Virus record (IMG/VR): IMGVR_UViG_3300023265_000005
Location: 1-44,489 of that record
Source of the DNA: a virus
DNA length: 44,489 nucleotides
Reading direction: 5' to 3' (one strand)
The translations under genes and the position numbers were made by a program. This document shows positions 29,228 through 36,488 of the stretch, piece by piece (positions within the stretch are counted from its first letter, which is position 1; every line of letters starts with the position of its first letter). A model generated the notes under the pieces. That model saw only the letters and a program-made list of their open reading frames with translations. It was not told the origin of the DNA and made no database searches.

Positions 29228-29457
29228 CAGGCGGCAATGCCCGATCGCGACAGGAACTCCGCTTGCCACAGCGCGAAAGGAACTTCGCCAGTCGTGGCGT
29301 CGTCGATCCTCCGCGCCGTCTCGGCGTCAGGGAAGCGCACTCCCTCGCAGTATCGGTGGATTGCAGGCTGGGTCTTGCCGATCCTGCCGGCGAGGTCCGT
29401 CTGCGTGTTCTCCGAGCGCCTGAGATATGCGTCTAGCGTGGCGGCATAGGTCTGCAT
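29227..29457 (-). CDS. Cro-like repressor (76 aa)
   Basis: Small XRE-like DNA-binding protein. The core is TLDAYLRRSENTQTDLAGRI, then GKTQPAIHRYCEGVRFPDAE; the recognition helix lies in QPAIHRYCEG. It is transcribed divergently from the CI-like gene across an operator region, the usual cro position. The predicted -10 box is only ~8 bases from the ATG, so the mRNA may be leaderless. The longer reading to 29589 would run through the operators and overlap cI. Confidence 0.8.
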   Translation of the reverse strand: MQTYAATLDAYLRRSENTQTDLAGRIGKTQPAIHRYCEGVRFPDAETARRIDDATTGEVPFALWQAEFLSRSGIAA

Positions 29458-29465
29458 GACGCTGC

Positions 29466-29493
29466 AATATACCAATACGGTATGTCTTGGCAA
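29466..29493 (-). promoter_or_regulatory. Leftward early promoter of cro
   Basis: Read on the minus strand: -35 TTGCCA (29488-29493), 16-bp spacer, -10 TATATT (29466-29471). The -10 is 8 bases before the cro ATG at 29457, so transcription would begin at or next to the start codon. An operator (29469-29483) overlaps the -10. Confidence 0.55.
29469..29483. promoter_or_regulatory. Operator, ATACC-N5-GGTAT
   Basis: ATACCAATACGGTAT is a perfect 5-bp inverted repeat around a 5-bp centre. It lies over the predicted cro -10, so binding there would block the leftward promoter. Related sites occur at 29537, 31540 and 31573. A degenerate half-site begins at 29493. Confidence 0.6.
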
Positions 29494-29536
29494 TACCAAT
29501 CTGGCCATACCGCCCACGTTCGCCGGCGGGCACAAT

Positions 29537-29551
29537 ATGCCAATGGGGTAT
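29537..29551. promoter_or_regulatory. Operator overlapping the cI start
   Basis: ATGCCAATGGGGTAT fits the operator pattern with one changed half-site base. It overlaps the cI start codon at 29537, so it could serve autoregulation by blocking cI transcription or initiation. Because it is coding sequence, conservation here may be partly coincidental. Confidence 0.4.
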
Positions 29552-30181
29552 CTCCAACTCGCCGAGCTGAGGAAGCGCAAAGGGTTCACGCAACAGACGC
29601 TCGCGGATGAGATGGGAGTCGAGCAGCCAACGATTCAGCGGTGGGAGGGAGGCAAGCGCGAGCCGACCATTGAGCAAATGCTTGAGTTGGCAAAGGTGCT
29701 GGACGTCGAGCCCGGCGCGCTCATAGACCCGAGCATCCTGGCATCGATCGGCCCCCGACTGTTCGTAAAGGGCGAGGTGGCCGCGGGCGTCTGGCGTCAA
29801 GCATTCGAGCTGGCGCCTGACGAGTGGCAAAGCTTCACCGGCCGCGCCGATGTCAACGCCAGATCGGAGCACCGCTTCGGTCTGCGGGTCATCGGCGACA
29901 GCATGGACGAAGTCTATCCGCCGGGGACGATCGTCGAGTGCGTGTCCGTGTTCGGCCATGTCGAGCCCGAGCCGGGCAGGCGCGTCGTTGTCTTGCGGAC
30001 CAACGAGAACAACGAAGTCGAGGCGACCGTTAAAGAATTGGTCGCGCAGGCTGGCGAACTATGGCTTGTGCCACGCTCATCCAACCTGACGCATCAGCCT
30101 TTCAAGGTGTCGGCGCCCGGGCCGGGAATCAAGCAAATCAGGATTGCCGCGGTCGTAGTGGCCTCAGTGCGGCCGGAATAG
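29537..30181 (+). CDS. CI-like repressor with S24 peptidase domain (214 aa)
   Basis: Maintains lysogeny. Residues 5-60 hold an XRE helix-turn-helix (AELRKRKGFTQQTLADEMGV, then QPTIQRWEGGKREPT). The C-terminal S24/LexA-type half has a likely self-cleavage bond A83-G84 (KGEVAAGVW), nucleophile S122 (IGDSMDEVYPPGT) and lysine K166 (ATVKELV). RecA-stimulated cleavage, and so SOS induction, is therefore expected. ATG 29537 is the start used here; ATG 29543 is an alternative, and the longer reading to 29456 would cross the operators. Encoded opposite Cro. Confidence 0.9.
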   Translation: MPMGYLQLAELRKRKGFTQQTLADEMGVEQPTIQRWEGGKREPTIEQMLELAKVLDVEPGALIDPSILASIGPRLFVKGEVAAGVWRQAFELAPDEWQSFTGRADVNARSEHRFGLRVIGDSMDEVYPPGTIVECVSVFGHVEPEPGRRVVVLRTNENNEVEATVKELVAQAGELWLVPRSSNLTHQPFKVSAPGPGIKQIRIAAVVVASVRPE

Positions 30182-30205: not shown

Positions 30206-31339
30206 GTGCAGGCCAAAGAACGGTTCCACCACCTTGACGGCATCCGCGGAATCGCGGCGCTCGCCGTGGTGATCGGTCACAGCAATTGGCCCAACCACAT
30301 CAAGGGCTACGGCTTTGCCGGCATCTCGCTTTGGGTCGACTTCTTCTTCGTCCTGTCCGGCTTCGTGATTGCCTACAATTATCAGGTGCGGCTTGGATCC
30401 GGGTTCGGCATCGGGAACTACATGTACCGCCGCCTCGCCCGGCTCTACCCGGCGCATGTTGCCGTGCTGGTCCTGTTGCTCGGCTATGAGCTGCTGAAAT
30501 ACGCCACGGAATCGAGCGCTGGCATCGGTGCCGAACAGGCTGCGTTCGAGCACAACAACCTGCCGACGTTCCTCGCCAGCCTTGCCCTGGTCCAGTCGAT
30601 GGGGCTGTTCGAGGCGTCGCATTGGAACGGCCCCTCTTGGAGTATCAGCACAGAGGTCTGGACCTACCTGCTGTTCGGCCTCGTGTTCCTCTGGCCCAAG
30701 CGAGCATGGATTATCGGCTGCACGCTCGCCGTGATCGCGCTGTCCTATGCCGTGATCCTCGCCAATCCGAACCGGGATTATCTGAGCGTTGAGGCCGACT
30801 TCGGGTTCTTCCGCTGCCTCATCGGATTCGGAATGGGCGTGCTGTGCTTCAATGCCTGGCAGGCGTGGAACGGGCGAGAGGCAGGTCCGGCGATGCAGGC
30901 GCTCCAGCTCGCGCTTATGGCCGCCGGGTTCGCCGCGGTCGCGCTCGGCCTCTACCAATCACCGCTGACACTCGCGGCGCCGCTCCTGTTCGGAGCGCTG
31001 GTTTACCTGCTCGCCGTCTATCGCCACGGGCTGCTCGAGCGGATGCTGCTGGTCAGTCCAGCCCAGTTCCTCGGGCGCATCTCCTACTCGCTCTACATTA
31101 GCCACGCGGTCGTTCGCCGGTTCGCCACCACGGGCCACAAGATCGTCTCAGGCAAGCTCTCGGGAGTGATGACGCCCGGACAGTTCGGCGACCTCGTGAC
31201 GCTGGCCTATGTGCCTGCTGCCGTCGTGTTCGGGTGGATGGTCTGGCGCTTTGTCGAGACGCCCGCGAACGACTGGTTGGTCGCGCGGCTTGGGCGCAAG
31301 AAGGCCGATCCCGAGAAGGCGGCAGGGGCGGCGTTTTGA
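30206..31339 (+). CDS. OafA-type O-acetyltransferase (377 aa)
   Basis: Membrane acyltransferase of family 3 (OafA/YrhL), which moves acetyl groups to surface polysaccharides. The N-terminal signature HHLDGIRGIAALAVVIGHS, a DFFFVLSGFVIAYNY helix, NYMYRRLARLYPAHVAVLVL, and the periplasmic-facing WSISTEVWTYLLFGLVF are all present, with roughly ten transmembrane segments. GTG start at 30206; the stop overlaps the next small gene. It lies directly behind cI, so it can be expressed from the prophage: a typical lysogenic-conversion position. O-acetylated receptors would often resist further phage, as known for Salmonella and Shigella phages; the target in this host is unknown. Confidence 0.88.
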   Translation: MQAKERFHHLDGIRGIAALAVVIGHSNWPNHIKGYGFAGISLWVDFFFVLSGFVIAYNYQVRLGSGFGIGNYMYRRLARLYPAHVAVLVLLLGYELLKYATESSAGIGAEQAAFEHNNLPTFLASLALVQSMGLFEASHWNGPSWSISTEVWTYLLFGLVFLWPKRAWIIGCTLAVIALSYAVILANPNRDYLSVEADFGFFRCLIGFGMGVLCFNAWQAWNGREAGPAMQALQLALMAAGFAAVALGLYQSPLTLAAPLLFGALVYLLAVYRHGLLERMLLVSPAQFLGRISYSLYISHAVVRRFATTGHKIVSGKLSGVMTPGQFGDLVTLAYVPAAVVFGWMVWRFVETPANDWLVARLGRKKADPEKAAGAAF

Positions 31340-35113: not shown

Positions 35114-35270
35114 CCTCTTCACCCGGTTCCTTACCGATCCTGGTTCTGCCTTGTTGGGGGTGGGGATTGGGACGGGGGCGGTGTTCCTTCTGTTTCAGAT
35201 TGGGGATGGGCTCGCGGAAAGAGCCGAGGCGAATGCCGCCTTCGGCGTCACCGCAGGAGACGATCAGTGA
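35106..35270 (+). CDS. Small membrane protein (54 aa)
   Basis: ATG 35106, inside the end of the previous gene; its TGA overlaps the next GTG. One hydrophobic helix (PGSALLGVGIGTGAVFLLFQIG) lies near the middle, then a charged tail (LAERAEANAAFGVTAGDDQ). Translational coupling with the following transglycosylase-like gene is likely, but its role is unknown. Confidence 0.55.
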   Translation: MRSLFTRFLTDPGSALLGVGIGTGAVFLLFQIGDGLAERAEANAAFGVTAGDDQ

Positions 35271-35875
35271 TCGCCCTGCTCGACAACGGGCAAGACCTTG
35301 CCGACTGCGAGGATGAGATCGGTGTGCCAGTCGGGCAACTCCTGACGCCGCTAACCCGGTATCGGCTACGCGATCCTGATCGGCCTTGGGCAATCGACAA
35401 CGGCGGCTTTGCCGAGCTGGACATCGACGCACTTTTTGCGCTGCTCACCCGTGAAGCGCACCATAAGGGCGACTGCCTTTTCGTGGCCGTGCCCGACATC
35501 GTTGCGTCAGCGCAGCGCACACTGGAGTTGTTCGAGCATTTCGCCCCGCAGTTGAAGGGCTGGCCACTCGCGCTTGTCTGCCAAGATGGCCAAGAGCATT
35601 TGCCGATCCCCTGGGGCGGCATCGCCGCGGTGTTCATCGGCGGAACCACGAATTGGAAGTGTTCGGCCCATGTCGAACAAATCATCAAAACAGCGCTACT
35701 TCTTGGGAAGCACGTCCACGCCGGCCGAGTGAATACGCCCGAGCGCTTCACATGGTTTGAACGGCGGGGAGCCCACACTGCGGATGGGACTGGAATGTCC
35801 CGATATACGCACATGCGGCAGGCAATCGCCATGCGCGGTCGGCAGGCTGAGCTCGACATTGGGGAGGCAGCATGA
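35267..35875 (+). CDS. tRNA-guanine transglycosylase-like protein, DpdA-related (202 aa)
   Basis: Looks like a short TIM-barrel member of the queuine tRNA-ribosyltransferase superfamily. Motifs in order: AIDNGGF (D44-F48, cf. the DSGGF block), AVPDIVAS (D77, candidate catalytic Asp), the IGGTTN loop (124-129), and GKHVHAGRVNTPERF (147-161, cf. the GVGTPED block), ending in DGTGMSRY. Tgt-family enzymes exchange guanine for a 7-deazaguanine base; DpdA paralogues do so in DNA, and short phage relatives occur (DUF7221-type, from memory). At 202 residues it lacks the tRNA-binding parts of full Tgt (~375). Its stop overlaps a QueD-like gene, which supports 7-deazaguanine chemistry. Substrate DNA or RNA is inferred. 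Confidence 0.6.
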   Translation: MIALLDNGQDLADCEDEIGVPVGQLLTPLTRYRLRDPDRPWAIDNGGFAELDIDALFALLTREAHHKGDCLFVAVPDIVASAQRTLELFEHFAPQLKGWPLALVCQDGQEHLPIPWGGIAAVFIGGTTNWKCSAHVEQIIKTALLLGKHVHAGRVNTPERFTWFERRGAHTADGTGMSRYTHMRQAIAMRGRQAELDIGEAA

Positions 35876-36228
35876 GGCTGTTCAAGCGCAAGCCGCAAGC
35901 CGCAACGGGCGTAGGTGCGACATTCTGCGCGTCTCACCGCGATCAAATCAGCGGCCAAGTGCACGGTCACAGCTACCATGTGAAGGCGTGGTTGCCGTTC
36001 TCGGCAGCAAGCAGCGCCACAGTGCAGCAGCACACGCTAAAGACGATTGTGGCGCGTCTTGATCATACCACGCTGCCTGATCGCCTTGCTTGGGCCGAGA
36101 AGTTGGCTGAGCACATCTTCCACGCGATGCGAACCGAGCACAGTTGGTACGATGGCAGCACGAGTTCGGTGCTCTGGGTCGAGGTGAGCCGCCCGCTTGA
36201 AGACCTTTACGCAAGGTGGCCGGCATGA
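35872..36228 (+). CDS. QueD/6-pyruvoyl-tetrahydropterin synthase-like protein (118 aa)
   Basis: Resembles QueD, the second enzyme of 7-deazaguanine (preQ0) synthesis. Zinc ligands appear as H22 (ATFCASHRD), H31 and H33 (VHGHSYHVKAW), and the LDHTTLP block (D64-H65) matches the family LDH motif; length matches (~120 aa). In E. coli QueD the catalytic Cys precedes HGH (CGRLHGH); here the equivalent is S27 (SGQVHGH). The C-terminal Glu region (VEVSRPLED) is also unlike VKET. It may have altered or lost activity, or supply a related pterin reaction. ATGA overlap with the transglycosylase-like gene suggests they act together. No queC, queE or folE is seen here. Confidence 0.6.
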   Translation: MRLFKRKPQAATGVGATFCASHRDQISGQVHGHSYHVKAWLPFSAASSATVQQHTLKTIVARLDHTTLPDRLAWAEKLAEHIFHAMRTEHSWYDGSTSSVLWVEVSRPLEDLYARWPA

Positions 36229-36488
36229 CCCTCATCGACCACGTCGAGGCATTTCTGGCACGTACAGGGATCCCTCCGGCGCAGTTCGGGCGGACAGCCT
36301 TGCGCGACCCACGCTTCGTATTCGACCTTCGCAATGGGCGCGAGCCACGAGCTGCTACCAAGCATTTCGTCGTCGCCTTCATGGCGATCCACTCACGCGC
36401 CATGGGACTAACGCCCGGCAGGGCTGAGACGCGCGCGCCAACCAAGGCAGTGCCCCGCCATACCTCCAACATCAAAGGAGACACCTGA
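36225..36488 (+). CDS. Small helical accessory protein (87 aa)
   Basis: ATG 36225 overlaps the QueD-like stop (ATGA). The core LIDHVEAFLARTGIPPAQFGRTALRDPRFVFDLRNGREPRAAT resembles a short helix-turn-helix-like protein frequent in alphaproteobacteria and their phages (DPRFV-LR-GREPR pattern). The C-terminal part is polar. It may bind DNA; the role is unknown. Confidence 0.7.
   Translation: MTLIDHVEAFLARTGIPPAQFGRTALRDPRFVFDLRNGREPRAATKHFVVAFMAIHSRAMGLTPGRAETRAPTKAVPRHTSNIKGDT

Follow-up and report, generated by a model that had tools for sequence, protein, structure and literature searches.

The two overlapping genes at 35267–36228, one encoding a small DpdA-like protein and the other a QueD-like protein (hereafter QueD′), are a recurrent variant of the known phage 7-deazaguanine systems. 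We consider the odds to be slightly in favor of a two-gene phage DNA-modification cassette for which the remaining preQ0 synthesis is borrowed from the host, based on family relationships, fold, conserved residues, gene coupling, a recurrent neighborhood, and purifying selection. The stretch of DNA analyzed (the window) is a 44,489-base IMG/VR virus record, apparently from a temperate tailed phage judging by its gene content (a CI/S24-type repressor, tyrosine integrase, terminase, SSB, Rad52-type annealase, RusA, and a portal-like protein). An acyltransferase-3 family gene (30206–31339) adjoins the repressor (29456–30181) and is probably a lysogenic-conversion gene.

The DpdA-like gene (35267–35875, + strand; 202 amino acids, PHROG 15826) has a GTG start and an AGGAG ribosome-binding site at 35255–35259 (+). 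The QueD-like gene (35872–36228, + strand; 118 amino acids, PTPS fold, Cys-less subgroup) starts with ATG, and its ribosome-binding site, GGGGAGG at 35861–35867 (+), lies within the 3′ end of the DpdA-like gene. The overlap of two small genes described in an earlier note on this DNA was borne out as an ATGA overlap with a good ribosome-binding site upstream of each. The two genes are real and their pairing is not a coincidence, as dozens of related loci carry both kinds of gene and purifying selection acts on them. A small ORF of 87 amino acids (36225–36488, +) starts in a further ATGA overlap with the QueD-like gene; it has no family match and is possibly a member of the same operon. A long antisense ORF (35248–36033, − strand) was rejected as a gene, as its codon-position GC pattern is unlike that of coding sequence and it is instead both plus-strand frames that have homologues and conserved proteins. 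The pair was also rejected as a known defense system, with no match in PADLOC.

The 202-aa protein belongs to a family of unknown function (phrog_15826, E = 2.7e-33), with 26 related loci in IMG/VR, and its homologues in named phages are annotated as 'DpdA-like tRNA-guanine transglycosylase'. Searches of Pfam and NCBIfam returned no above-threshold match, including no direct match to the Pfam DpdA family (PF23859), and a match to the EAL domain (E = 0.15) was under the cut-off and set aside as TIM-barrel noise. The relationship emerged from a profile–profile comparison of the widened family with phage DpdA (PHROG 887 members plus the DpdA of phages SHIN8, R29Z, and Sonali), which aligned 187 columns with a probability of 97.4% (E = 1.3e-11), compared to 0.4% for the reversed control. 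The protein contains the motifs D44NGGF, P76D77, QDGQE, IGG, GRVN, and D173GTG, and in the alignment DNGGF corresponds to DNGAF in DpdA, VPDIV to IPDVI, IGG to IG(S/W), and ADGTG to (V/A)DST. Within a 23-sequence alignment of the DpdA-like proteins, D44, N45, P76, D77, Q106, D107, G125, G126, H151, R154, N156, D173, and G174 are invariant, and D44, D77, and D173, aligned to the DSGG/DNG, PD, and D(S/G)T positions of DpdA, are the candidate catalytic residues. The motifs listed in the earlier note, AIDNGGF (D44), VPDIV (D77), IGGT (G125–G126), and GRVNTPERF, were all found in this ORF.

An AlphaFold2 model of the 202-aa protein (pLDDT 92.0) returned TGT structures as the dominant top matches in the PDB (E = 7e-6, probability 1.0, TMq ~0.5). 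ThiG and aldolases match about equally well, so that the fold alone is only consistent with a TGT-like barrel. The window has no match to PF01702 (TGT), the CxCxxC zinc motif is absent from the 202-aa sequence, where the C-terminal zinc region of TGT is missing, and a profile comparison of the family with 30 bacterial TGTs was negative. A PDB search with the single sequence gave chance matches only, and a search with a profile of the family found no relative either. The assignment to the Tgt/DpdA superfamily made in the earlier note stands as far as DpdA is concerned: the comparison of profiles points to a distant but clear relationship with phage DpdA and, judged by motif and context, to a putative DpdA-like action. 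The genes are conserved at the protein level (dN/dS ~0.05–0.10), and PHROG 15826 can now be placed in the orbit of DpdA. In Escherichia phage SHIN8, the homologue (L064:5932–6524), which lies near a complete DpdA, is annotated as a pair of ORFs that overlap as they would after a frameshift; the gene may be decaying or may use a programmed frameshift.

For the 118-aa protein, the Pfam PTPS family matches above its cut-off (E = 1e-5), and an AlphaFold2 model (pLDDT 91.6) has QueD/PTPS structures as its best PDB matches in Foldseek (E = 2e-6, probability 1.0); a single-sequence search of the PDB gave chance matches only. The relevant residues are H22, S27, H31-G-H33, L63-D64-H65, E76, R107, and E110. 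Among 29 aligned phage QueD′ proteins, H22, H31, H33, E76, R107, and E110 are invariant, and conservation of D64 and H65 is 90% or higher. The three histidines and the LDH block noted from the sequence are thereby borne out. Cys27 of QueD is usually taken as catalytic. At this position of the CxxxHGH signature the window has S27 and its phage relatives D, E, S, T, or I; within the phage QueD′ subgroup only one clade (L059–L062) has the Cys. The protein scores 25 bits against the QueD equivalog (TIGR03367), for which the cut-off is 89.25. The sequence likewise departs from the PTPS-II (CxxxxxHGH) and PTPS-III (ExxHGH) signatures (PMC5041015), with Q25 and an invariant G28 occupying those positions. 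The 118-aa protein is, by these comparisons, a member of the PTPS/QueD fold that is not filed as QueD, since it lacks the Cys signature and falls below the equivalog cut-off. In a small tree, the phage QueD′ proteins cluster on a single branch, separate from the canonical QueDs included (split support 0.645).

The QueD′ group is under purifying selection and is maintained rather than decaying, given dN/dS values of mostly 0.05–0.15 (0.33 for the window and L002). A degenerate pseudogene is ruled out by this selection and the family-wide conservation. Some members diverge further: in two loci (L001:6612–6995 and L037:5962–6327), a GKC motif that brings in a new cysteine takes the place of the DH dyad, and a very divergent QueD-like ORF in Synechococcus phage Ssp-JY42 (L028:5639–6001) has HEH for HGH and has lost DH. 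The latter is annotated merely as hypothetical and lies immediately upstream of a DpdA-like gene.

A single-sequence scan of viral contigs for QueD′ found nothing, but an alignment-based profile scan identified 35 viral contigs. Across 37 loci (the window, L001–L005, Caulobacter phage DMCA, and those newly found), a DpdA-type gene neighbors QueD′ in every case: PHROG 15826 in six, PHROG 887 in 30, and Pfam DpdA (PF23859; E = 4.5e-45) in one, L038. Several of these loci are near-duplicates of one another, and the QueD′ alignment holds 29 distinct proteins. The profile was seeded from loci adjoining phrog_15826 genes, plus DMCA, and the 31 loci with the other DpdA families are therefore nearly free of ascertainment by seeding. 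The three DpdA families (e.g., L038:6290–6979, L030:6303–6998, and window:35267–35875) share the slot beside QueD′, on either side of it. The combination of a short transglycosylase with a single QueD-like gene, thought uncommon in the earlier note, is recurrent, and pairs of this general kind occur in dozens of phages. A queE gene adjoins QueD′ in 9 of the 37 loci, and searches of whole records found queE in 6 of 40 and folE in none; as a record may be a fragment, such absences carry little weight. One record (L032) has queE, queD′, dpdA, and queC in a row and no second PTPS gene. Three records (L016, L014, and L021; G033, G037, and G034) carry the small DpdA-like gene without QueD′ and have a QueC homologue instead. 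The literature searched contained no description of the dpdA–queD′ pair and no test of a QueD without the Cys, though an earlier description is possible. A later paper reportedly adds four 7-deazaguanine derivatives to those known in phages.

The missing Cys is not confined to phages. A Novosphingobium MAG carries the dpdA–queD′ pair on a prophage related to the window, with 74% identity between its locus and the DpdA-like protein of the window, and elsewhere in the same MAG queE, queD, and queC occur in a row with a QueD that reads ESSRRIHGH, a Ser at the Cys position. In a class-wide sample of Alphaproteobacteria, to which the Rhizobium genome of L069 was added, 13 distinct QueD homologues were readable. 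Ten of them have S, Y, or N in place of the Cys, and for eight of the ten the gene adjoins queE and/or queC. Most of the sampled homologues also score below the TIGR03367 cut-off. The phage QueDs of SHIN8, R29Z, and Sonali retain the Cys. As far as these sequences can tell, the change is common and probably arose more than once, and the operon context suggests that absence of the Cys alone is no sign of lost function. Because the loss is common to nearly the whole phage subgroup and to most sampled alphaproteobacterial QueDs, some within queE/queC operons, it is not a specific degeneration, and S27 loses the standing as an oddity that the earlier note gave it. The family calls of that note held, and the grounds on which it considered the locus odd mostly did not. 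It should be noted that for most QueDs in the alphaproteobacterial genomes (L078–L090), which lack the CxxxHGH Cys and fall under the NCBIfam QueD cut-off, annotation pipelines may overlook or misname the gene.

Under the favored cassette, QueD′ would convert dihydroneopterin triphosphate, the product of host FolE, to 6-carboxytetrahydropterin (CPH4), and host QueE and QueC would carry CPH4 to preQ0. The small DpdA-like protein would then replace guanine in the DNA of the phage with a 7-deazaguanine, for which preQ0 or a closely related base is the likeliest candidate, and the replacement would shield the phage genome from host restriction. We infer the inserted base, the choice of DNA over tRNA, and the anti-restriction role, as well as the catalytic competence of a QueD′ of the S27, D, E, or T type. 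In phage CAjan, dpdA is essential for dPreQ0 and for resistance to restriction (PMC6884629). A host-supplied base has precedent, as phages 7-11 and MED16 have dpdA without preQ0 genes and yet contain dADG (PMC8306585), and the nearest pair-carrying genome, the Novosphingobium MAG, has a host queE–queD–queC operon. Several observations count against the cassette. QueD′ mostly lacks the Cys usually taken as catalytic, the window protein lies far below the QueD equivalog cut-off, and three members (L001, L037, and L028) have also lost the DH dyad. The small protein has no direct sequence-profile link to bacterial TGT and other TIM barrels match its model about equally well. Mycobacterium phage Majeke carries a homologue, and mycobacteria are without the preQ0 pathway (PMC6884629). 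The SHIN8, R29Z, and Sonali genomes encode a full-length DpdA in addition to the small protein, which may therefore not be the sole transglycosylase everywhere.

These observations leave room for other functions of the pair. QueD′ may no longer be a CPH4 synthase. It could instead be a zinc T-fold protein that binds a 7-deazaguanine or pterin base and passes it on to DpdA, or it could catalyze another pterin/deazapurine step leading to a different modified base. The near-universal loss of the Cys, the loss of the DH pair in three members that kept all three histidines, the usual position of QueD′ as the sole pathway gene in a record, and its constant adjacency to DpdA rather than to queE/queC alone would all fit. 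Most members, however, keep DH and the Glu, QueE is a partner in nine loci, the L032 record, with its row of queE, queD′, dpdA, and queC, has no other PTPS gene, and the Cys-less alphaproteobacterial QueDs within queE/queC operons suggest that the Cys is dispensable; we regard this reading as rather unlikely. Its group-wide form, in which the phage QueD′ proteins have left QueD chemistry to become a Cys-less zinc T-fold base-carrier subunit or the maker of a new deazapurine/pterin DNA base, paired with any of the three DpdA families, is similarly improbable.

The small DpdA-like protein could alternatively be an accessory or altered-specificity paralogue that inserts no base, in which case the window pair would modify little or nothing or would need another transglycosylase. 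In Sonali it occurs together with a full DpdA and a complete set of preQ0 genes, and in SHIN8 and R29Z together with DpdA, FolE, and QueD; it is the shortest DpdA type and has no C-terminal zinc region, and the SHIN8 homologue is split. Conversely, phages of the window type place it in the slot that other DpdA families fill elsewhere, the window record has no other TGT or PHROG 887 gene, and the putative catalytic Asp residues show no variation in the family alignment, making an accessory role decidedly unlikely. Least probable, to the point of being quite doubtful, is that the pair modifies host tRNA to boost the queuosine pathway. The TGT-type fold would allow it and phages with queD/E/C but without dpdA have been proposed as boosters of host Q (PMC6884629), but the sequence relationship is to DpdA and not TGT, the zinc region is absent, and in related phages the genes nearby encode, among others, a DNA polymerase and its processivity factor.

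The preferred two-gene cassette defines a recurrent minimal unit, any DpdA with a Cys-less QueD-like partner, through which phages, many of them probably infecting Alphaproteobacteria, may draw on the queuosine metabolism of the host to protect their DNA. Across a large part of one bacterial class, CxxxHGH fails as the signature for annotating QueD, so that the role of its cysteine can be tested directly.

Among the closest known systems are those phage DpdA systems that lack most or all of the preQ0 genes (group 3 of Hutinet et al. 2019; MED16 and 7-11). Like these, the window has a phage DpdA-type gene without folE, queE, or queC and would need host preQ0, but it differs in having a dedicated QueD-like gene translationally coupled to dpdA and in a transglycosylase of the small PHROG 15826 type. 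The complete preQ0 systems (CAjan, Rosebush, and the Seuratvirus SHIN8) share the combination of DpdA with a PTPS-fold QueD, and the queE–queD′–dpdA–queC row of L032 resembles them further. They differ in that folE is absent from all records searched here, QueD′ has no Cys, and the window is without queE and queC. Seuratvirus, the genus of SHIN8, is also that of CAjan. In common with E. coli QueD (PTPS-I) and alphaproteobacterial QueD, QueD′ has the PTPS fold, three zinc His, DH, and a C-terminal Glu, and most of the sampled alphaproteobacterial proteins are likewise without CxxxHGH. QueD′ is set apart by its own tree branch, a Gly that is invariant at the third position ahead of HGH, and a shorter loop (H-x8-HGH in the window and H-x7-HGH in many relatives, compared to ~H-x14-HGH in E. 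coli QueD). Finally, gp81 of Arthrobacter phage Sonali, annotated as a 'DpdA-like tRNA-guanine transglycosylase', is a homologue of the window's 202-aa protein, but that phage also encodes a full DpdA, QueC, a QueD with the Cys, QueE, and FolE.
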